From a virus, in the IMG/VR virus record IMGVR_UViG_3300035389_000038, positions 1-35,620 of that record: 35,620 nucleotides of DNA; one strand, given 5' to 3'. A program made the translations under genes and the position numbers. The stretch's first letter is position 1. Each line of letters opens with the position of its first letter. A model generated the notes under the pieces. That model was not told where the DNA came from. It searched no databases and saw only the letters and a list, made by a program, of their open reading frames with translations. Positions 1,166 through 11,606 of the stretch are shown here, one piece after another.

Positions 1166-1407
1166 CCATCCAGTTTTTCCATAGGTCGAAAAAGGTCTGC
1201 CTTGGTCAAAAAAAACAAGTGGGCCGTTTGCCGGAGGCCTGGGATCTCCTCGATCGCAACAGCAAAAAAACTCAAGTGAATCTTTCAGCTGGCGTATGAA
1301 CATCCCCTCCATATATAGGGTACAACCCTCTTTACAACATGGGCTGAAAATTCAGCCCATGATAATCCTCCCTACGTTCAAAAACTTTCAATGCTTTGCA
1401 GTATTGG
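1166..1407. other. Gap without a convincing gene; possible gene remnant and a hairpin
   Basis: No complete gene is seen. On the plus strand a frame from about 1166 to 1291 reads smoothly (GRLPEAWDLLDRNSKK, then TQVNLSAGV and a stop) but has no start codon, and looks like the 3' end of a lost gene. A hairpin lies at 1338-1361. Confidence 0.3.
1338..1361 (-). terminator. Hairpin downstream of the AAA-like gene, possible terminator
   Basis: CATGGGCTGA and TCAGCCCATG form a perfect 10-bp stem with a 4-base loop. It lies 47 bases past the stop codon of the minus-strand gene ending at 1408. A clear U-run is missing, so termination is only a guess. Confidence 0.35.
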
Positions 1408-1932
1408 TTAATTATGATGATGGCTTGCCGGATCAATCGATGCTTGTAAATGAATGTGGGCAGATCTTAAGCTTATGCCTTTATCTTTGTTGATGATTTT
1501 GTCGACTTGGGGGATATCACCGACAAAGAGTATCCCTAAAGGAACTTCGCGGGATCTTGCACTTTCAAAAACTGTTTTCATGGCCTGAAAGACCTTGAGT
1601 TTCAAGAGATGAGCATTTTGAAAAATCAGAAAGATAGGTTTTCGGGTCTCAAAATAATACTCTTGTATGAGTGAAAATAATTGATGAGCTCTTCCTACTC
1701 GCGATCTTTTAACAGGTTTAGATGTAAAGGTTTTGATAACTGTTTTTTCAAATTGAAAAATGCTAAATTTCTCATCGGCGTCAATATCAATTACAAAAAA
1801 ATTATAAATTTCACCATCTTGTTCGGGTAGTTCATCGATAATAGTGAAATAATAGCCGTAATTTATAACCGCTTTAAATATTTCAGCCTTTTTTGTAAAG
1901 TCCATCATTCTTATTGTCCTGTTGGTGCTCAT
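1408..1932 (-). CDS. Degenerate AAA/MuB-like protein without a Walker A motif
   Basis: The 174-residue product has in its C-terminal half a pattern like the Walker B/sensor-1 part of AAA_22 (MuB/GspA-type) ATPases: KPIFLIFQNAHLLKLKVFQA, where family members have LLIIDEAHLL, then PLGILFVGDIPQVDKII in place of the usual LVGQPEL. No Walker A (GxxGxGKS) precedes it, and the acidic Walker B residues are replaced (QN for DE), so it should not hydrolyse ATP. The N-terminal half (FFVIDIDADEKFSIF) is of unknown fold. It could be a decoy or immunity partner of the prophage's own MuB-like protein, or just a remnant. The start ATG 1932 gives MSTNRTIRM; the sequence upstream stays open for a few codons and is shared with the neighbouring zinc-finger gene. 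Confidence 0.5.
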   Translation of the reverse strand: MSTNRTIRMMDFTKKAEIFKAVINYGYYFTIIDELPEQDGEIYNFFVIDIDADEKFSIFQFEKTVIKTFTSKPVKRSRVGRAHQLFSLIQEYYFETRKPIFLIFQNAHLLKLKVFQAMKTVFESARSREVPLGILFVGDIPQVDKIINKDKGISLRSAHIHLQASIDPASHHHN

Positions 1933-2008: not shown

Positions 2009-2362
2009 TTACGCAATCATATCAGGTGGCTCCAGATCCAGCTTCAGCTCCTGTTTGGCCTTGAGGAGTCGAAGAATGACAGCCACATCAAAGCAGACCT
2101 CTTTAAGTTCGCTATGATCAATCTGTTCTATCTCTTCGAGTATCTTATAAATTCGATACCGGTCAAAGTTCAGATGATATGCATCCATTATCCTTGTCAA
2201 ATCTGCGGTTTCTTTGACCTTTGATGTCACCTGACCTGCAAAGATTTCAAAACACCTGTTGCAGATTTTTCCATTTTTGTCGGAAAGGAGAAGTTCAACA
2301 TCGTTTCTATCCTTGCCACAAAAAGTACAGCAGAAATGTCCATCGGTGTTGTTGGAGCTCAT
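2009..2362 (-). CDS. ClpX-type zinc-finger protein
   Basis: The N-terminus carries a four-cysteine zinc finger, C12-T-F-C15-GK and C34-N-R-C37. This is the spacing and context (CxFCGK...V..L) of the zinc-binding domain at the N-terminus of the ClpX unfoldase. The remaining 80 residues are helical ([20 protein letters not shown]) and are not the ClpX ATPase; total length is 117 against more than 400 in ClpX. In ClpX this domain dimerises and binds substrates and adaptors such as SspB and MuB. A role in redirecting host ClpX is inference. The start ATG 2362 overlaps the stop of the upstream zinc-finger frame (ATGA), indicating translational coupling. Confidence 0.7.
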
Positions 2363-2633
2363 TCCTTTTCATCCGTTTTATTTTCGGTGACATTGAGTCC
2401 GTAAAGCTTACCGTTGGTCCAGCCTGCAATATCCTCTTCAAGAATGTTAGCGCACAAGACTATGCACTCGTTGCAAATATAAACACTGGGGCCTGCAATC
2501 AGTTTTTTGACTTCTCTGTATTCTTTGCCGCAAAAGCTACAGTAAAAATAAGGATCTTCATTCTCATCCTGTCGGTGCTCGTCATAATTTTGCGGCTGAG
2601 GTTGTGATAACGTTTCTGTGTAGGTGCTCTCAT
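2359..2633 (-). CDS. ClpX zinc-binding-domain mimic, start region frameshifted
   Basis: The minus-strand frame ending at TGA 2361-2359 encodes [18 protein letters not shown] then [20 protein letters not shown]. This is a near copy of the zinc-binding domain of bacterial ClpX (CSFCGK..xEV.KLIAGP..YICDECV.LC). A short tail ending TENKTDEKE replaces the ATPase domain. This frame has no ATG, GTG or TTG back to about base 2720. The ATGs at 2633 (15 bases after GGAG) and 2585 lie in another frame, and a -1 shift around 2585-2550 is needed to reach the zinc finger. A missing base, a real frameshift or a non-standard start are all possible. Its stop overlaps the start of the next zinc-finger gene. 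Confidence 0.55.
2559..2611 (-). repeat. Leader repeat copy B
   Basis: This copy matches the segment 1906-1960. In the common frame both encode YHN(L/F)SRKI followed by a ST-containing start region (MTSTDRM and MSTNRT), with a codon-sized gap between the copies. Confidence 0.6.
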
Positions 2634-2702: not shown

Positions 2703-3347
2703 TTATTTTATTCGCATTATGATGCTATGGAGTTTTTTTAAATTTTGTTCTCCCAATTGAGTAAGAGACGAAACCCTTTTCTCTAAATTTGTATAAACGA
2801 TGTTATAGACCTCCCCTTTGGATAAATTCAAATTTCTGGCTCTGGCCCAAATCGCCCCGTAGAGCTCGTTCCTCCATTTTGTATTGTCTGTGCGACGAAT
2901 TTTTGTTCTTTTGATGGCCGATTGCTGCTTAATCCAAGAAAGGGCTTCATCTCCTAAATGGTATGAGATCTCCTTATAAGTGCTCACCTCATATCGATCT
3001 TTTATAACACCCCACCACTTTGAATAGGCTTTTTTACGAGGCATTCCTCCAGCTTCTTCTTTTGAAACAAGGTTATCAACAGCATCTTTTATTTGTTTCG
3101 CTTGCTTAGCTTCAATATGCTGAGGGCCCGGCGTGAATTGGGGACGTTCAATTTTTGGACGAGGACTTAAGTTTAAATCTCCAGAAATATTAATATCTCC
3201 GCCTGAAGTAATGTTATTGTTTCCTGTAATAGAAATATTGGTGCTACGTTTGGGCTTTTCAGTATCGGGGTCTTTCTCATCGCCCTTACTCTTGGCCTTA
3301 TTAAACAAATGAATAATTTCTCCTTTTACATCATCATCCTTGCTCAT
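2703..3347 (-). CDS. Antirepressor-like phage protein (ORF6C-like C-terminus) with Asn/Gly repeat stretch
   Basis: The 214-residue protein begins with a charged region, followed at about 36-62 by an Asn/Gly-rich stretch that alternates like a beta-helix ([24 protein letters not shown]). After a proline-rich linker comes a helical domain (about 90-150: [35 protein letters not shown]) resembling the ORF6C domain found at the C-terminus of phage antirepressors. Its position just downstream of the repressor on the same strand suggests expression in the lysogen. The start ATG 3347 is preceded by AGGAGTTAAGAG. It could be a modulator of the repressor or a lysogenic-conversion protein; the ORF6C match is by eye and only moderate. 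Confidence 0.55.
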
Positions 3348-3443
3348 CTCTTAACTCCTAATTGTACAACTAATTCGATAATTCAATCTACTGGGATGTA
3401 TCAAACCCATTTTTATGTTTCATTTTGGCTCTTTACCTTTTCT

Positions 3444-3878
3444 CTAAACCGCAAGTTTCACATACTTTGAAACGATATTCGAATCCGCTTCCTCTCCAGA
3501 TTTATGGAAATATTCGTATAGGAGAATGATGACCTGGGCTTTTTTATCAGGATCAAGCTCCTTATTTGCCATTCCCAGAACTCCTTCAACGCCAGCGATT
3601 ACACTTTCCAGAAGTTCGAGGTCAACAGGAGGGGGTGGGGTCTTTGGTGGTCCCTCAATCTCTCTCAGATCTGGTTCGCCTTCTCCACTTATAAGCCACT
3701 CCAGATTAATCCAGGGAATGTTAGCCTTTAACCTTTGATAAAATGCTGTCCCTGGGCTTTGGTCTCCTTTTAGATACTTAAAGAGTTGAGCTCTACTTAT
3801 TCCACCAGACTTAGCAAACTCATCTCTTTTAAGACCTGATCGACTAATTACAGTTTTTAATCTATCGGAAAAATTCAT
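3444..3878 (-). CDS. CI-type phage repressor with N-terminal HTH
   Basis: Residues 1-65 form a helix-turn-helix domain of the phage CI type: FSDRLKTVISRSGLKRDEFA, then GGISRAQLFKYLKGDQSPG and the WLISGEG motif typical of phage repressors at the end of the DNA-binding domain. A proline-rich linker (GPPKTPPPPV) leads to a short helical C-terminus (about 90-144) that probably mediates oligomerisation. No LexA-like protease domain is present, so RecA-stimulated self-cleavage is not expected; 144 residues is normal for this short class. It is transcribed divergently from the Ner-like gene and should hold the early promoter of the prophage silent. Confidence 0.85.
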   Translation of the reverse strand: MNFSDRLKTVISRSGLKRDEFAKSGGISRAQLFKYLKGDQSPGTAFYQRLKANIPWINLEWLISGEGEPDLREIEGPPKTPPPPVDLELLESVIAGVEGVLGMANKELDPDKKAQVIILLYEYFHKSGEEADSNIVSKYVKLAV

Positions 3879-4047
3879 TCTAATAACAACCAGTTAGTTT
3901 GTGTCGGTAGTGGTTGGATATGTTTTGGTATCCAAAAGTTGATTTTTAATTGTTGACAGGTCTCCAAAAGTTTATTACTTTAGTCTCACTTAGTTAACAC
4001 GCCTGATAAAACAGCGTTATGGTTAATATCTAAAAAAGGAGCCACAC
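3879..4047. promoter_or_regulatory. Divergent operator/promoter region of the lysogeny switch
   Basis: The 169 bp separate the repressor (minus) and the Ner-like gene (plus). A plus-strand promoter is visible: TTGACA at 3953-3958, a 17-bp spacer, then TACTTT at 3976-3981. A direct repeat TCCAAAAGTT occurs at 3931 and 3963, spaced 32 bp (three turns), so that the second copy sits inside the promoter spacer. These are good candidate operators. Leftward promoter elements are not clear. Confidence 0.6.
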
Positions 4048-6648: not shown

Positions 6649-8367
6649 ATGTGGAAAATGGAACTGGTCAGAGATTTGGGGGCAGCTAGGGACGGTGATG
6701 GAAAAGCTACCAATGTTATGCGGAGATACATGGAGTGTACCGGAAAATCCAAGCAGCAGCTATACCGGATCGCCAAGGATAATGGTTACAAACCCAAGAC
6801 TAAAAGGAAAAGGAGGTGTGATTTGGGAACCTGTTGCCTAACGGATGAGCAGATCGGATATGTGGCCGGAAGGCTTCATACATCTGCCCGACAGATCAAG
6901 GGGGTCATTATCCCGGTTGAGAAGGCCCTGGAGGATGCTTTTGACAACGGGATCATCGACCGGGGGAGTATCTCTGTATCCAGGATGCAGGCGATTCTCC
7001 GGGAAAGAGGCTTGAACGCAGAGGCTCTGAATGTTCAGGAGCCTCATATAGAGATGAGGTCCCTTCATCCCAACCACGTGCACGAATGGGATGTCTCCGT
7101 GTGTATTCAGTATTACCTGAAAGGAAAACAGGGTTTGCGGATCATGGATGAGCGCAAATTCTATAAAAACAAATGGGAGAATTTCGCTAAGGTCAAGCAG
7201 AAGATATACCGCTATGTTCTTACCGATCATTTCAGCCATACGATCTTTATCAAATATTACATTGCCAAGGGTGAAACCCAGGATAATTTATACGACTTCC
7301 TTTCTGCTGGGTGGGCCGGTGGCAAGCATAAGAAACTGCCTTTCAGGGGCGTTCCGTTTTTTGTTCTGATGGATGCCGGTGCCGCCAATATCAGCAAGGC
7401 CATCACAAGGCTTATTAATCGGCTTGATGTCAAGACACCGAAAGCGCTTCCCTCAAATGCCAAGCGCCAGGGGTCTGTTGAAAGAGCCCAGGAAGTCGTT
7501 GAAAAGTGGTTTGAATCGGAGCTTCGGTTCCAGCCCGCCGACAGCATTGAGACTCTTAACGAGTGGGCGCTTGACTGGTGTGTCTGGTTCAATGCGACCA
7601 AGAAACATACCCGCCATAAGATGACACGGACGGCTTGCTGGTTACAGATCAAGGAGGAACAGCTCCGGGAGCTTCCGGCACCTGAGATTCTTCATAACCT
7701 GTATGCCCAGCCGGAAAAAGAATGTCTGGTTTACGGGGATTATTCGATCAAATTCAACTCAGAGCGGTTCCGGGTGAAGCACATTGAGGGGTTGATACCC
7801 CATAAATCAAAGGTGAAGGCCATCTTGCGGCCCTATCACTGGCCTGAAATCGGTATTGTGTTCAACGATGTTGAGTATCTTGCCAGTCCCATTGGGACGG
7901 CTGATGGCGGGTTCAGCGCTGATGCCTCCGTGATCGGGGAAGAGTTCAAGGCCATGCCGGAAAGCATCACCCAGAAGGGCAAGAAGCGTATCGAGAACCG
8001 GGCCTACGGTGAAGACAGGAAGAAAGACGACATCCCGTATGCAGGTTCCGGCACCATGGGGAAACAGGCCGCCAAGGTGACCTATGATTTCATGCCCCGC
8101 AAGGGAACGCCCATGGCGTTTGACAAGGCCGGGGTTGAAGAAAAGGAGATCCCCATCACTGAGTTTTTTAAACGTCTGATCGGACAGGGGTGCAGCATCA
8201 CTCCTGAGATGAACAAGGCTATACGGGCTGAATACGGCAAATCGATCAGCCTCACGGAGTCGGCCAGGCTGATCGATTTAATTGAGAGTGGAGATGCCTA
8301 TGTCTTGAACGGGAAACTGATGATGGAGAGCCAGGATGATACGTTTAAAGCAGTTGCTAATTCATAG
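6649..8367 (+). CDS. MuA-type DDE transposase
   Basis: This 572-residue protein joins and cleaves the phage ends during integration and replicative transposition. An N-terminal HTH region (about 20-110) precedes the RNase-H-like catalytic core. The three catalytic acids are visible: D148 in HEWDVSVC, D242 in FFVLMDAGAAN and E278 in AKRQGSVERAQEVVEKWFE. The last two are separated by exactly 35 residues (DD35E, as in integrases), against 55 in Mu itself. A beta-barrel/DNA-binding part with SERFRVKHIEGL follows at about 360-430. The C-terminal helical tail would be the MuB/ClpX contact region by analogy with Mu. GGGTGGG stands before ATG 6649. The 3' end overlaps the MuB-like gene by 32 bases. 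Confidence 0.9.
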   Translation: MWKMELVRDLGAARDGDGKATNVMRRYMECTGKSKQQLYRIAKDNGYKPKTKRKRRCDLGTCCLTDEQIGYVAGRLHTSARQIKGVIIPVEKALEDAFDNGIIDRGSISVSRMQAILRERGLNAEALNVQEPHIEMRSLHPNHVHEWDVSVCIQYYLKGKQGLRIMDERKFYKNKWENFAKVKQKIYRYVLTDHFSHTIFIKYYIAKGETQDNLYDFLSAGWAGGKHKKLPFRGVPFFVLMDAGAANISKAITRLINRLDVKTPKALPSNAKRQGSVERAQEVVEKWFESELRFQPADSIETLNEWALDWCVWFNATKKHTRHKMTRTACWLQIKEEQLRELPAPEILHNLYAQPEKECLVYGDYSIKFNSERFRVKHIEGLIPHKSKVKAILRPYHWPEIGIVFNDVEYLASPIGTADGGFSADASVIGEEFKAMPESITQKGKKRIENRAYGEDRKKDDIPYAGSGTMGKQAAKVTYDFMPRKGTPMAFDKAGVEEKEIPITEFFKRLIGQGCSITPEMNKAIRAEYGKSISLTESARLIDLIESGDAYVLNGKLMMESQDDTFKAVANS

Positions 8368-9517
8368 CGGAATCAGCCAGAAGGAGTTTGCCTCCCGGGT
8401 TGGATGGAGTTTGACCAACGTGAATGGAGTGCTCTCCAGGGGTGCTTTCCCTAAGAAAAAGGAAGCGTTTGTTAAAGATGTTGAAAGCGCGGTTCGGGCA
8501 TCTCCAGAAATAATGAAACTTCTGGCAAAAAAAAGATGGCTGGTTCCTGAGATCTGGAACAAACCACAAAGTGGACGATACGCAAAACACAAGGGATTCA
8601 ATGCTCAGCGGGTTGTGGCTAAGCCCCTGGAGATGGGAGATCCGCTTGAAATCAAACCAAGAAAGGATATTGAAATGCTGACACAAAAGGCAGTTAAATT
8701 TTTTAAACTTTTTCGTAATCCGTTTATTAACGACGTGGCAGGCAAGAAGGATGTTTTTTTGTCCCAGGACCACCGGTTCCTGATGGAGATGATGCTTGAT
8801 TCTGCGAGGTACTCTGGGTTCTGTGCCGTATCTGGCGGTGTTGGGTCCGGCAAGTCTGTAATGCGGAGGGTTGCGGTTGAGCAGCTTATGCAGGAAGGAA
8901 TCAAGGTTGTGTTCCCTGTGATCGTTGATAAGTCCAGGATCACCCCGTCCAGCCTGATCGATGCGATCATAATGGACATATCCGACGAGAACCCCAAGAG
9001 AAATCTTGAACAGAAAACACGTCAGGCCCTGAAACTCCTTAAGAATCGGGCCAATCACAGCATGAAGCAGGTGTTGATCATCGAGGAGTCTCAAAGTCTG
9101 GATATAAGGGCATTTAAGGCGCTCAAACAGATCTATGAACTGGAGGATGGATACAGCAAGCTGATAGGCATCGTCCTTATTGGGCAGCCGGAGCTTATGA
9201 AAAAGCTGGATGATGTGCACTACCCCGAAATGCGGGAGGTTATCAGGAGGATCTCAACCGCTGAGATCGAAGGCTTGATGGATGATGTTGAGCCTTATCT
9301 GAAGCACAAGTTTGAGCGTATCGGCAGGAAGGCTGGGGATGTCTTGGAGGCTGACGTGTACCCGGCAATCAACAAGAGGTTGATAAGGGCGAAGGGTCGG
9401 AAAATGATGAATCGAAGCTATCCTTTGTCGGTGAATAACCTTGTTACCAGGGCTATGAATCTTGCCGCTGATATGGGTGAGGAGAAGGTAACCGCAGATT
9501 TGATTTTAGGCTGTTAA
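8336..9517 (+). CDS. MuB-type AAA ATPase, transposition target selector
   Basis: The 393-residue protein has an N-terminal HTH (about 1-50: LIHSGISQKEFASRVGW, SLTNVNGVLSRG) as in MuB. It is followed by an AAA_22 ATPase domain with Walker A GGVGSGKS at 167-174, Walker B QVLIIEES at 245-252 and sensor-1 LIGQPEL at 281-287. An arginine-rich lid (REVIRRIS) and a helical C-terminus complete it. MuB binds DNA as an ATP-dependent filament, captures target DNA and activates the transposase. At 393 residues it is somewhat longer than Mu MuB (about 312). The start at 8336 overlaps the transposase gene, so expression is coupled. Confidence 0.9.
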   Translation: MIRLKQLLIHSGISQKEFASRVGWSLTNVNGVLSRGAFPKKKEAFVKDVESAVRASPEIMKLLAKKRWLVPEIWNKPQSGRYAKHKGFNAQRVVAKPLEMGDPLEIKPRKDIEMLTQKAVKFFKLFRNPFINDVAGKKDVFLSQDHRFLMEMMLDSARYSGFCAVSGGVGSGKSVMRRVAVEQLMQEGIKVVFPVIVDKSRITPSSLIDAIIMDISDENPKRNLEQKTRQALKLLKNRANHSMKQVLIIEESQSLDIRAFKALKQIYELEDGYSKLIGIVLIGQPELMKKLDDVHYPEMREVIRRISTAEIEGLMDDVEPYLKHKFERIGRKAGDVLEADVYPAINKRLIRAKGRKMMNRSYPLSVNNLVTRAMNLAADMGEEKVTADLILGC

Positions 9518-9919: not shown

Positions 9920-10147
9920 ATGGCAGCCACAGCAGTTGAAATGATCCAGAATAAGGACCAAGAGCGTATTGATGACGTTCACCTGCACCTGAACGATATT
10001 TTTGAGTCTCTGCTCCGCATCCCGCCAGGTTCCCATGACGGGGACATGGCAAAGCAGGAGGCCGTCAAAGCCCTGGTCAAGATCCGTGTGCAGCTCTCTA
10101 ATCTGGGCCTCAAGCATAGTGAAGCCGGTGTCAAGGGAGGTTGCTGA
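9920..10147 (+). CDS. Small early phage protein
   Basis: The frame opens at 9812, but AGGAGG at 9905-9910 lies 9 bases before ATG 9920, giving a 75-residue helical protein (AATAVEMIQNKDQERIDDVH, LHLNDIFESLLRIPPGSHDG). The stretch 9812-9919 reads as an arginine-rich, unstructured extension and may be untranslated leader. The stop TGA overlaps the ATG of the next gene. No family is recognised. Confidence 0.55.
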   Translation: MAATAVEMIQNKDQERIDDVHLHLNDIFESLLRIPPGSHDGDMAKQEAVKALVKIRVQLSNLGLKHSEAGVKGGC

Positions 10148-10551
10148 TGTATTGCAAAAGATATCGAGCAGACATCCCCGAGGTCACCTGCATTGCAAGA
10201 CAGGAAAGGGCCAAGGGTAAGAAGTGGCGCTCCTCAGATCCTGGTTGCAGGAAATGTCCCCAGGGACAACAGCTTCTTTTGTTGAAGACACAAGGAAAGG
10301 CCATTGAAACGCCGCAGCCAGCGTCAAAGGAATGCAAGGCTTGCGGTCATATGAAAGATCTGAAAAAGGGTTATCACCCGGACCCCGGCACCAAGGATGG
10401 CTACAAATCTGTCTGTAAAGTCTGTTTCAATGTGGCCAGGCAGAGGCGTCGTGATCTTCAAAATGGAGGTATAGAGCAGCCCACGGGCTTGAATATCTAT
10501 CCTGTAGGGACCAACAATCAATTTGCGAGACTGGAGGCAAGGCATGCCTGA
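10147..10551 (+). CDS. Double zinc-ribbon early phage protein
   Basis: The 134-residue protein contains two cysteine clusters. The first, near the N-terminus, is C3, C16, C34 and C37 (GCRKCPQG). The second is C-x2-C...C-x2-C (KECKACGHMKDLKKGYH, then KDGYKSVCKVCFNVARQRRR), a pattern common in small phage zinc-finger proteins related to HNH-type zinc knuckles. No HNH catalytic His-Asn pair is seen, so binding of nucleic acid is more likely than cleavage. GGGAGG stands 6 bases before ATG 10147, which overlaps the previous stop. An in-frame TTG two codons upstream is possible. Confidence 0.6.
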   Translation: MYCKRYRADIPEVTCIARQERAKGKKWRSSDPGCRKCPQGQQLLLLKTQGKAIETPQPASKECKACGHMKDLKKGYHPDPGTKDGYKSVCKVCFNVARQRRRDLQNGGIEQPTGLNIYPVGTNNQFARLEARHA

Positions 10552-11275
10552 ATTCTGGGGATATCAAAGGTTTTTTAGTGAACCTGTATTGGAGACATGT
10601 GACGGCGGCAGCTGGCCAGTGGATGTGATGAAAGAGCACGATGACATTAAGTTCTTTGTTGAAGCGTTCAATGCACCTTCAAGAGAAGATGCTCAAACCA
10701 TCTTAGAAGAGCACTGCAAGCGTGAAGGAATGATTAACCGGGTTCTGCATACTTCTGTTGATGAAGGGATCAGGATGGGGATCAGGAATATTGATGATGC
10801 CGAGGTCCTTAAGGAGTGCTTGAAACGGGAGCAGGGAGGGGATGCTCCACGGGTAACCCTGGTTAAGGCCCTTTCGGCAAGAATCAGAAGATTGGAGAAG
10901 CTGGGAACGGCCAAATCTAAGCAGGTCAAGGATACAGAGGGTTCTCCCGGCAAGCCGTTGGATCTTAAACAAATGAAAGCAGACGGCGCTACTCAAAAAG
11001 AAATTATTAAGGCTTTTCAGGACAGTATGCCTAAGGGGCGGCCCCGGCTTTCTTTTGCCGATGCAAGGAAGATTCTGATTACCAACAAGCTCATCATGCC
11101 TAAGCAGGCCAAGGAGGAAGCCGCCCTTGAGGGAGTTGAGCTGGTTTGTGTGGAATGTGGTTATGAGGGGACATTTGTTCGCCCTGGCAGGTATGAGTAC
11201 TGCCCTATTTGTAGTGCTGTACTGATCAAGCCCGGGATTATTGATAGCTTTAGCTTGGATGACGATAATGAGTGA
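10544..11275 (+). CDS. Early phage protein with C-terminal zinc ribbon
   Basis: The 243-residue protein has a helical body (about 20-190) and a C-terminal rubredoxin-like zinc ribbon (CVECGYEG, 14 residues, then CPICSAV). It includes a KADGATQKEIIKAFQDSM segment that resembles a recombinase/resolvase HTH ('G.s..eIa..l'), and PRLSFADARKILITNKLI. Together these suggest a DNA-binding regulator. The start ATG 10544 has GGAGG 8 bases upstream and overlaps the previous gene by 8 bases; a further ATG at 10523 is less likely. Function unknown. Confidence 0.6.
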   Translation: MPEFWGYQRFFSEPVLETCDGGSWPVDVMKEHDDIKFFVEAFNAPSREDAQTILEEHCKREGMINRVLHTSVDEGIRMGIRNIDDAEVLKECLKREQGGDAPRVTLVKALSARIRRLEKLGTAKSKQVKDTEGSPGKPLDLKQMKADGATQKEIIKAFQDSMPKGRPRLSFADARKILITNKLIMPKQAKEEAALEGVELVCVECGYEGTFVRPGRYEYCPICSAVLIKPGIIDSFSLDDDNE

Positions 11276-11606
11276 AACTGAGAAATATCGCTGTAGCTTT
11301 TGCGGCAAGTCACAAGACGAAGTCGATATGCTGGTAAGGGGCTTTTCTGACGCTTTTATGTGCAAGGAATGCATTCTCTACAGTGTTAAAAAGTTTGAAA
11401 TCAAAGAAAAAATAGAACTCCAGGAAGAAAAGAAATTTATTGTCCATATATCAGGTCCGGACGACATCATGGGCCCATACACTGAGCTTGAAGCCTACAG
11501 ATGGGCTAATGGGATAAATAATCTTTGGGTCAAAGTCCGTGCGAAAGAGGGGGATGACACCCCTCTGTGTGTTGCGGTCGTAAATGAAGCGGAACGGAGC
11601 GGATGA
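11268..11606 (+). CDS. ClpX-type zinc-finger protein, early operon copy
   Basis: The N-terminus MSETEKYRCSFCGKSQDEVD carries C9 and C12, and C32-K-E-C35 closes the finger. E. coli ClpX reads CSFCGKSQHEVRKL at the same place, so the match to the ClpX zinc-binding domain is close. No AAA domain follows. The rest of the 112 residues is a small alpha/beta domain (KKFIVHISGPDDIMGPYTEL, EAYRWANGIN). This is the third protein of this kind in the prophage and the only one in the lytic early operon. ATG 11268 overlaps the previous stop by 8 bases. Binding to host ClpX or its adaptors is inference. Confidence 0.7.
   Translation: MSETEKYRCSFCGKSQDEVDMLVRGFSDAFMCKECILYSVKKFEIKEKIELQEEKKFIVHISGPDDIMGPYTELEAYRWANGINNLWVKVRAKEGDDTPLCVAVVNEAERSG

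Follow-up and report, generated by a model that had tools for sequence, protein, structure and literature searches.

The genome of a Mu-like virus of bacteria, record IMGVR_UViG_3300035389_000038 (35,620 bases; the window, below, means this whole record), carries three genes that we tentatively read as stand-alone copies of the N-terminal zinc-binding domain of ClpX, accessory genes of a Mu-like prophage whose products may compete for the ligands of the host ClpX N-domain. Two of them (copies 1 and 2) lie on the minus strand, on the repressor side, and the third (copy 3) lies in the plus-strand operon that follows the transposase and MuB genes, so that the first-pass annotation was right to place two copies in the lysogeny block and one in the early operon. 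The features that the argument needs are as follows.

1408 to 1932, minus strand: pseudo-MuB, a MuB-like AAA protein (by profile, alignment and predicted fold)
1904 to 1959: first copy of a 56-nt direct repeat, where the pseudo-MuB gene starts (the two copies are 80% identical and spaced by 650)
2009 to 2362, minus strand: copy 1, a 117-aa protein with a ClpX-type C4 zinc finger and a tail (PF06689, 29.3 bits)
2359 to 2577, minus strand: copy 2, a ClpX-type finger, the nearest to real ClpX (PF06689, 66.5 bits)
2554 to 2609: second copy of the 56-nt direct repeat, just upstream of the copy 2 finger (same 80% pair)
2659 to 2693: inverted repeat with 16-nt arms, upstream of copy 2 (repeat search)
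2703 to 3347, minus strand: anti-repressor-like or ORF6C-like protein (phrog_17822, unknown, E 7.3e-9; phrog_245, anti-repressor, E 1.8e-6)
3444 to 3878, minus strand: helix-turn-helix (HTH) protein resembling a repressor, in the lysogeny block (phrog_2328, transcriptional repressor, E 6.7e-10)
6649 to 8367, plus strand: MuA-like transposase (phrog_310, transposase, E 9.4e-57)
8336 to 9517, plus strand: MuB-like ATPase with an intact Walker A (phrog_296, DNA transposition protein, E 4.6e-45; AAA_22, E 2e-16)
11268 to 11606, plus strand: copy 3, a 112-aa early-operon protein with a ClpX-type finger and a C-terminal segment (PF06689, 44.5 bits)

Scans of the window for promoters and terminators returned numbers at the level of shuffled sequence (10 promoters against a mean of 9.5 and 4 terminators against 3.8), and operon limits were therefore inferred from strand and spacing. 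The inverted repeat upstream of copy 2 was absent from the list produced by the simple terminator scan. The gene at 2703 to 3347 sits between the repressor gene and the finger genes; its product resembles an anti-repressor at the C-terminus and has a run of NISITGNN-type motifs at the N-terminus, with relatives in related prophages (L063:5401-6012, minus strand, E 7e-51, and L076:6150-6827, minus strand, E 5.5e-39). At the left edge, the frame at positions 1 to 267 has GTVKGDLHDIGKNLV, which by its motif we take to resemble a corrinoid-binding host protein; because this frame looks like a host protein, the prophage probably ends near base 130.

To place the fingers in a family, we searched the whole window in six frames with the zf-C4_ClpX profile (PF06689). 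This search found copy 1 at 2243-2332 (minus strand, E 1.4e-8), copy 2 at 2434-2544 (minus strand, E 4.2e-20) and copy 3 at 11289-11378 (plus strand, E 2.4e-13), and no fourth match at an E value of 1 or lower. All three scores listed above pass the curated cut-off of 27 bits, which bears out the earlier description of three C-x2-C...C-x2-C fingers in a ClpX context; zf-C4_ClpX was the top Pfam family for each of the three proteins, and no other Pfam family came close to its own cut-off in any of them. In an alignment of 15 fingers that included all three copies, the four cysteines, in two CxxC pairs, were invariant. The copies also keep the ClpX signature beyond the cysteines (the F within the first pair, GK, EV or DV, and L). 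The only solved structures matched with an E value below 0.1 were ClpX chains, the best being 1ovx, the E. coli ClpX zinc-binding domain (E 3.8e-16 for copy 2, 8.2e-5 for copy 3 and 7.9e-4 for copy 1). The three proteins had also been described as lacking an ATPase domain, and indeed a Pfam scan found no AAA or other ATPase domain in them, and the ClpX equivalog models TIGR00382 and NF003745 were far from reached (24 to 47 bits against cut-offs of 359 to 371). The PHROG families of stand-alone fingers, phrog_6797, phrog_12435 and phrog_5259, were matched by copies 2 and 3, and by copy 1 only at 0.006. A comparison with defence systems brought up nothing noteworthy, only PtuB1 with copy 1 (0.0091, 13.7 bits), which we took as chance.

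Copy 1 and copy 3 each form an open frame that begins with ATG, and their mean codon scores (0.25 and 0.12, respectively) fall inside the range of the phage's other genes, which extends from 0.18 to 0.48 for 15 plus-strand training genes and from -0.01 to 0.14 for four repressor-side genes. Against the four best host ClpX proteins, copy 1 is 32 to 41% identical over 29 to 42 residues and copy 3 is 58 to 68% identical over 28 to 31 residues. As we read the alignment, both keep F16, and the position of I46 is occupied by Q in copy 1 and by K in copy 3. Each has a C-terminal segment of approximately 70 residues past the finger. A tail search found no relatives of the copy 3 segment, and a C-terminal module suspected to be common to copy 3 and the L050 zinc protein found no support, the joint profile having matched only L050 and loci with the same protein. 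Copy 3 is the last of three consecutive early genes (10141-11606, plus strand) that have CxxC pairs in each; the product of 10141-10551 is Lar/endonuclease VII-like, and that of 10523-11275 has a zinc-ribbon-like C-terminal stretch.

Copy 1 is predicted to take, as a monomer, the zinc-binding treble-clef fold of the ClpX finger. The mean pLDDT of the model is 65, with blocks 11-40 at 90 to 94 and blocks from 51 on at 44 to 57, and the tail is predicted to be helical with low confidence. The top fold match was ClpX itself (9a5x_A, E 0.0058), followed by the ClpX zinc-binding domains 2ds5_A, 2ds6_A and 2ds7 (TM-score on target of 0.83 to 0.86, rmsd of 0.8 to 1.0 Å, E 0.07 to 0.12); over the solved ClpX zinc-binding domains as a whole, the rmsd was 0.8 to 2.0 Å and E was 0.07 to 0.5. 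The first-pass annotation had staked its reading on the treble-clef zinc dimer, and the copy 1 model bears it out for the monomer, ClpX and its zinc-binding domain being what the model lies closest to, with no fold match at an E value of 0.001 or better and with an input alignment that held ClpX fingers and leaned the predictor toward the ClpX fold.

Copy 2 had been called nearly identical to real ClpX, which holds for a 12-letter core and fails over 39 residues, where none of the host ClpX proteins compared exceeds 74% identity, the figure for that of a Desulfobacteraceae genome (L198, G008). By alignment, it keeps both residues of the adaptor pocket, F16 and I46. The gene assigned to it, 2359-2633, does not stand: it is 275 nt long and is not an open reading frame, and the frame read from the ATG at 2633 runs to 2499 (inside a 58-aa ORF) and is not that of the finger. 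The finger frame is open back to a stop at 2725-2727, and the 61 codons between this stop and the first cysteine include no ATG, GTG, TTG, CTG, ATT or ATC, only a single ATA at 2706. Because the ATG lies in the other frame, copy 2 is frameshifted, decayed, misassembled or unusually read; codon scoring did not place the site of the frame change. The 56-nt direct repeat (80% identical) ties the stretch before the copy 2 finger to the start of ORF 1408-1932, and recombination between its two copies may have caused the break, sequencing or assembly error and translational frameshifting being possible alternative causes. The earlier suggestion that the fingers act as decoys is weakened as a consequence, because copy 2, the most decoy-like of the three, has no in-frame start.

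The fingers are accessory genes that lie outside the core Mu pathway, since they are missing from nearly all of the related Mu-like loci examined. Among 137 loci around related transposases (several entries are the same contig twice), a custom finger profile found one clear finger, at L073 14527-14838 (E 4.7e-11), which belongs to the early operon and lies approximately 3 kb beyond the transposase, a position similar to that of copy 3; the weak matches in L148 (E 0.032) and L100 (E 0.26) were left out of the count. Most of the 58 loci L050 to L107 could have shown a finger, because at least 4 kb lies downstream of the transposase match in 46 of them and at least 4 kb lies upstream of it in 45. 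A Pfam search found no finger in five related viral records, which may be fragments. In 15 genomes with related prophages, a PF06689 search found one full-length ClpX each (open frames of 418 to 438 aa) and two extras, a second 426-aa frame in G017 and a 104-aa frame in G018, the latter being the L073 finger locus, so that three fingers in one phage are more than chance would give. Across 297 genomes of the phylum, 283 had a PF06689 match and ten had a second match (profile hits counted from the table).

Stand-alone ClpX fingers are already known in unrelated phages, and what is new here is their triple occurrence on both sides of the switch. Used as a query against the viral collection, copy 1 found no relatives, and copy 2 found 38 loci, comprising 30 of the P88 type, two other stand-alone fingers (L005 and L008), five full ClpX proteins (L004, L018, L021, L038 and L041) and one unsorted locus (L007). 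A tblastn search of 50,697 phage records with copy 2 gave matches in 52, P88 and D6 among them, with one match per record; several of the 52 are annotated as Clp or ClpX and several carry no annotation. Copy 3 matched 24 phage records, all at less than 60% identity and in the finger part only. The finger protein of P88 (Peduoviridae; AIZ95127.1, L204:3815-4147) carries the name carboxylate-amine ligase and a remark on ClpX, and that of D6 (YP_009914770.1, L205:2818-3138) is annotated as carboxylate-amine ligase, a name that is probably a propagated naming error in both. A stand-alone finger gene of a lambdoid phage (L047:6001-6189, plus strand) lies between NinB and NinG; because lambda O degradation requires the ClpX zinc domain (PMC7804408), this site could, by analogy, fit a protective role for ClpX-sensitive replication proteins, a fit that is no proof. 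Among the matches listed in a search of the open-access literature, with subscription journals mostly outside its coverage, no paper dealt with phage stand-alone ClpX fingers, phage ClpX decoys or repressor-linked MuB copies.

We judged the pseudo-MuB tied to the repressor to be a more surprising part of this prophage than the fingers. Its gene, ORF 1408-1932, lies downstream of copies 2 and 1 on the same strand. In a 56-sequence alignment, it has no Walker A, the P-loop G and K, both nearly invariant, being replaced by Y28 and F29, and the acidic pair of Walker B is replaced by Q105 and N106. In Pfam, it matched AAA_22 at E 0.01, below the cut-off, and only from profile position 28 on; the pseudo-MuBs of two related loci, L123 and L128, matched the same family only from profile position 33 on. 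As a single query, it found L123 at 2.5e-10, L128 at 2.9e-7 and ten MuB frames of related loci at 0.002 to 0.05, and a profile made from ORF 1408-1932 and its L123 and L128 relatives, three seeds none of which has a Walker A, matched the MuBs of related phages at 6e-12 to 0.06. These sequence matches point to a MuB identity. In the predicted structure, blocks 51-150 have a pLDDT of 85 to 97 and both ends are low. A second-look fold comparison gave TnsC (7plh) a Z score of 12.7 (148 residues, rmsd 3.2) and MuB (8xvc) one of 12.4 (146 residues, rmsd 3.4), with Cdc6 (1fnn) tied with MuB at 12.4, whereas in plain Foldseek ORC/Cdc6 AAA proteins led the list, TnsC came at ranks 14 and 26, and the best 50 included no MuB; the input alignment of the predictor held MuBs. 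By its predicted fold, this is an AAA protein from the group of initiators, TnsC and MuB, within which structure by itself does not pick out MuB.

Among the profile matches in the 137 loci, a Walker A pattern missed only the pseudo-MuBs of L123, L128 and L088 and the protein of L084, which follows the transposase and has a GAGKT stretch and which we therefore rejected as a pseudo-MuB and counted as an ordinary MuB. The L123 pseudo-MuB gene (1318-1758, minus strand) is directly downstream of an HTH repressor gene (1772-2176), as is that of L088, from Moraxella caprae (6862-7308, minus strand; repressor at 7312-7701), and a protein identical to the latter is present in L182. In L128, the HTH and pseudo-MuB parts are fused in one 318-aa frame (3007-3963, minus strand), and in the window the repressor is separated from the pseudo-MuB by three genes, 2703-3347, copy 2 and copy 1. 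The finger profile found no finger in L123, L128 or L088, so that among the loci compared fingers and a pseudo-MuB were seen together only in this window. As a single query, the pseudo-MuB found no relative in the viral collection; a profile of four pseudo-MuBs confirmed 2 of 61 stretches there, both on contigs already in the set, and the L123 and L088 proteins had no match in the 50,697 phage records. Run against 24 genomes, the four-member profile matched in 19, where the sole frame as short as a pseudo-MuB was that of L088 (149 aa), the remaining frames being of 289 to 513 aa, plus one of 249 aa with an internal stop.

The Mu repressor is degraded by ClpXP. Both MuB and ClpX bind the C-terminal domain of MuA, and ClpX remodels the Mu transpososome (PMC3562280 and PMC3362531), with MuA being recognized by the ClpX N-domain (PMC5415555). 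Passages of PMC7804408 describe the E. coli ClpX N-domain as a dimer and a docking site for adaptors, with SspB, RssB, trigger factor and lambda O docking on the zinc domain; F16 and I46 lie in a hydrophobic side pocket in which SspB and RssB also bind. The first-pass annotation had the zinc domain binding both adaptors and MuB, and the adaptors are confirmed in these passages, in which MuB was not found as a ligand. According to the same passages, mutants at F16 and I46 lost only the enhancement by trigger factor and still degraded lambda O, so that the adaptor pocket is not the whole of N-domain function. During prophage induction in S. aureus, ClpX is needed to clear a CI fragment (PMC10584840).

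Competition for the ligands of the host ClpX N-domain is to us the likeliest mechanism, one that we put forward tentatively and rate level with a generic binding role. A free finger, whether it dimerizes with itself or joins a host domain, would present the ligand-binding surface of the host N-domain and would thereby weaken or redirect what ClpX does to a phage target through that domain. In the lysogen, the target would be the repressor, whose loss would be slowed; early in the lytic cycle, it would be the transposase or another replication protein, whose handling would be altered. Free N-domains could have such effects by analogy, because ClpX acts on MuA and on the CI fragment. The data establish the family of the phage fingers, their lack of an ATPase, their location, their rarity among relatives and the predicted fold of copy 1; that they bind zinc, dimerize, are expressed and touch ClpX or its ligands is inference, as is the way in which the effect would run. 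Judged from gene position, it is possible that fingers on both sides of the switch cover both states, as had been suggested.

The recurrence of stand-alone fingers in the unrelated phages P88, D6 and lambdoid L047, and in the related Mu-like L073, speaks for competition, as do the top Pfam and PDB matches of all three copies, the predicted fold of copy 1 and the pocket residues kept in copy 2. Against it, copy 2 has no in-frame start and I46 is lost in copies 1 and 3, and if copy 2 is untranslated, the proposal rests on these two diverged copies, in which the pocket is only partly kept; with one clear finger in 137 loci and none in the five viral records, the core pathway evidently works without one. 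A conserved partner gene of the fingers did not turn up. The early operon contains other small zinc proteins as well, and a generic binding role is easy to imagine. We give the same tentative standing to the explanation that the fingers are generic treble-clef modules of ClpX-finger ancestry with no tie to ClpX today, binding DNA or proteins as early or moron proteins. The strong divergence of copies 1 and 3, with I46 lost, speaks for this explanation, as do the further CxxC proteins of the early operon (10141-10551 and the C-terminus of 10523-11275) and the CxxC protein of another kind that L050, L053 and L054 (the same protein in each) have in a comparable early-operon stretch; it accounts less well for the ClpX signature kept outside the cysteines and for other Pfam families being nowhere near their cut-offs.

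An adaptor role, in which the fingers pair with the host ClpX N-domain and their tails deliver a phage or host protein to ClpXP for destruction, appears unlikely, although the dimeric, adaptor-docking nature of the E. coli N-domain (PMC7804408) and the segments of approximately 70 residues that follow the finger in copies 1 and 3 would suit it. Compared with the two-helix module found in P88-type and L008 finger proteins, the copy 1 tail scored 7.3 bits, a level attained by 4 of 1,000 shuffles and by none of 193 windows taken from other phage proteins; however, this match was sought after the fact and had a probability of only 6.8% in a profile comparison, so that the likeness is a lead only, and the tails have no recognized function. 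Less probable still is that copy 2 is debris, a clpX 5' end that was captured and is now frameshifted, copies 1 and 3 being remnants of greater age and divergence. The missing in-frame start, the 74% identity over 39 residues to Desulfobacteraceae ClpX and the repetition of the ORF 1408-1932 start region before the finger all speak for such an origin, whereas copies 1 and 3 are intact frames with starts and codon scores within the phage gene range, and all four cysteines are kept in all three copies. Two candidate degrons were also tried and rejected: several of the 17 transposase relatives end in Ala or a hydrophobic residue, and these ends are too poorly conserved to count as ClpX-like degrons, and the KLAV end of the repressor is not shared by the HTH proteins of L123 and L088, which end differently.

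The pseudo-MuB prompts a wider version of the competition proposal, which we regard as a long shot. Because MuB and ClpX both contact the same MuA domain, the repressor-side block may hold look-alikes of both ATPases that act on the tail of the transposase, namely ClpX docking domains and a MuB that is dead as an ATPase, which would form a protein-level layer of lysogeny. Made in the lysogen, these look-alikes would occupy the MuA C-terminal domain or the ligands of ClpX, and this occupancy would block stray transposition and protect the repressor, on top of transcriptional repression. If this were true, the pseudo-MuB would be a more general device, since three other Mu-like phages have one beside an HTH repressor or fused to it. 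The link between a dead MuB and the repressor suggests that, besides repression, a protein-level control of transposition may operate in the lysogens of some Mu-like phages. Phage finger families sit in databases without a function or misnamed 'protease' or 'carboxylate-amine ligase', and a phage with three fingers, from a group in which the model phage depends on ClpX, opens a ClpX question to testing.

With the ClpX N-terminal zinc-binding domain (PF06689; 1ovx and 2ds5 to 2ds8), the three copies have in common the four cysteines, their spacing and C-[ST]-F-C-G-K, as well as, for copy 1, the predicted fold; unlike ClpX, they have no AAA+ domain, keep I46 in copy 2 only and have additional tails on copies 1 and 3. 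The stand-alone finger proteins of other phages (phrog_6797, phrog_12435 and phrog_5259; P88; D6) have the same finger without an ATPase, as in the window. In the P88 type, approximately 60 residues with a two-helix-like stretch precede the finger, whereas the tails of copies 1 and 3 come after it, and the other phages have one finger per record (52 copy 2 records), whereas this phage has three, two of them on the repressor side. The pseudo-MuB shares its profile and predicted fold with the MuB/TnsC transposition ATPases and differs from them in its missing Walker A, its degenerate Walker B and its location on the repressor side.
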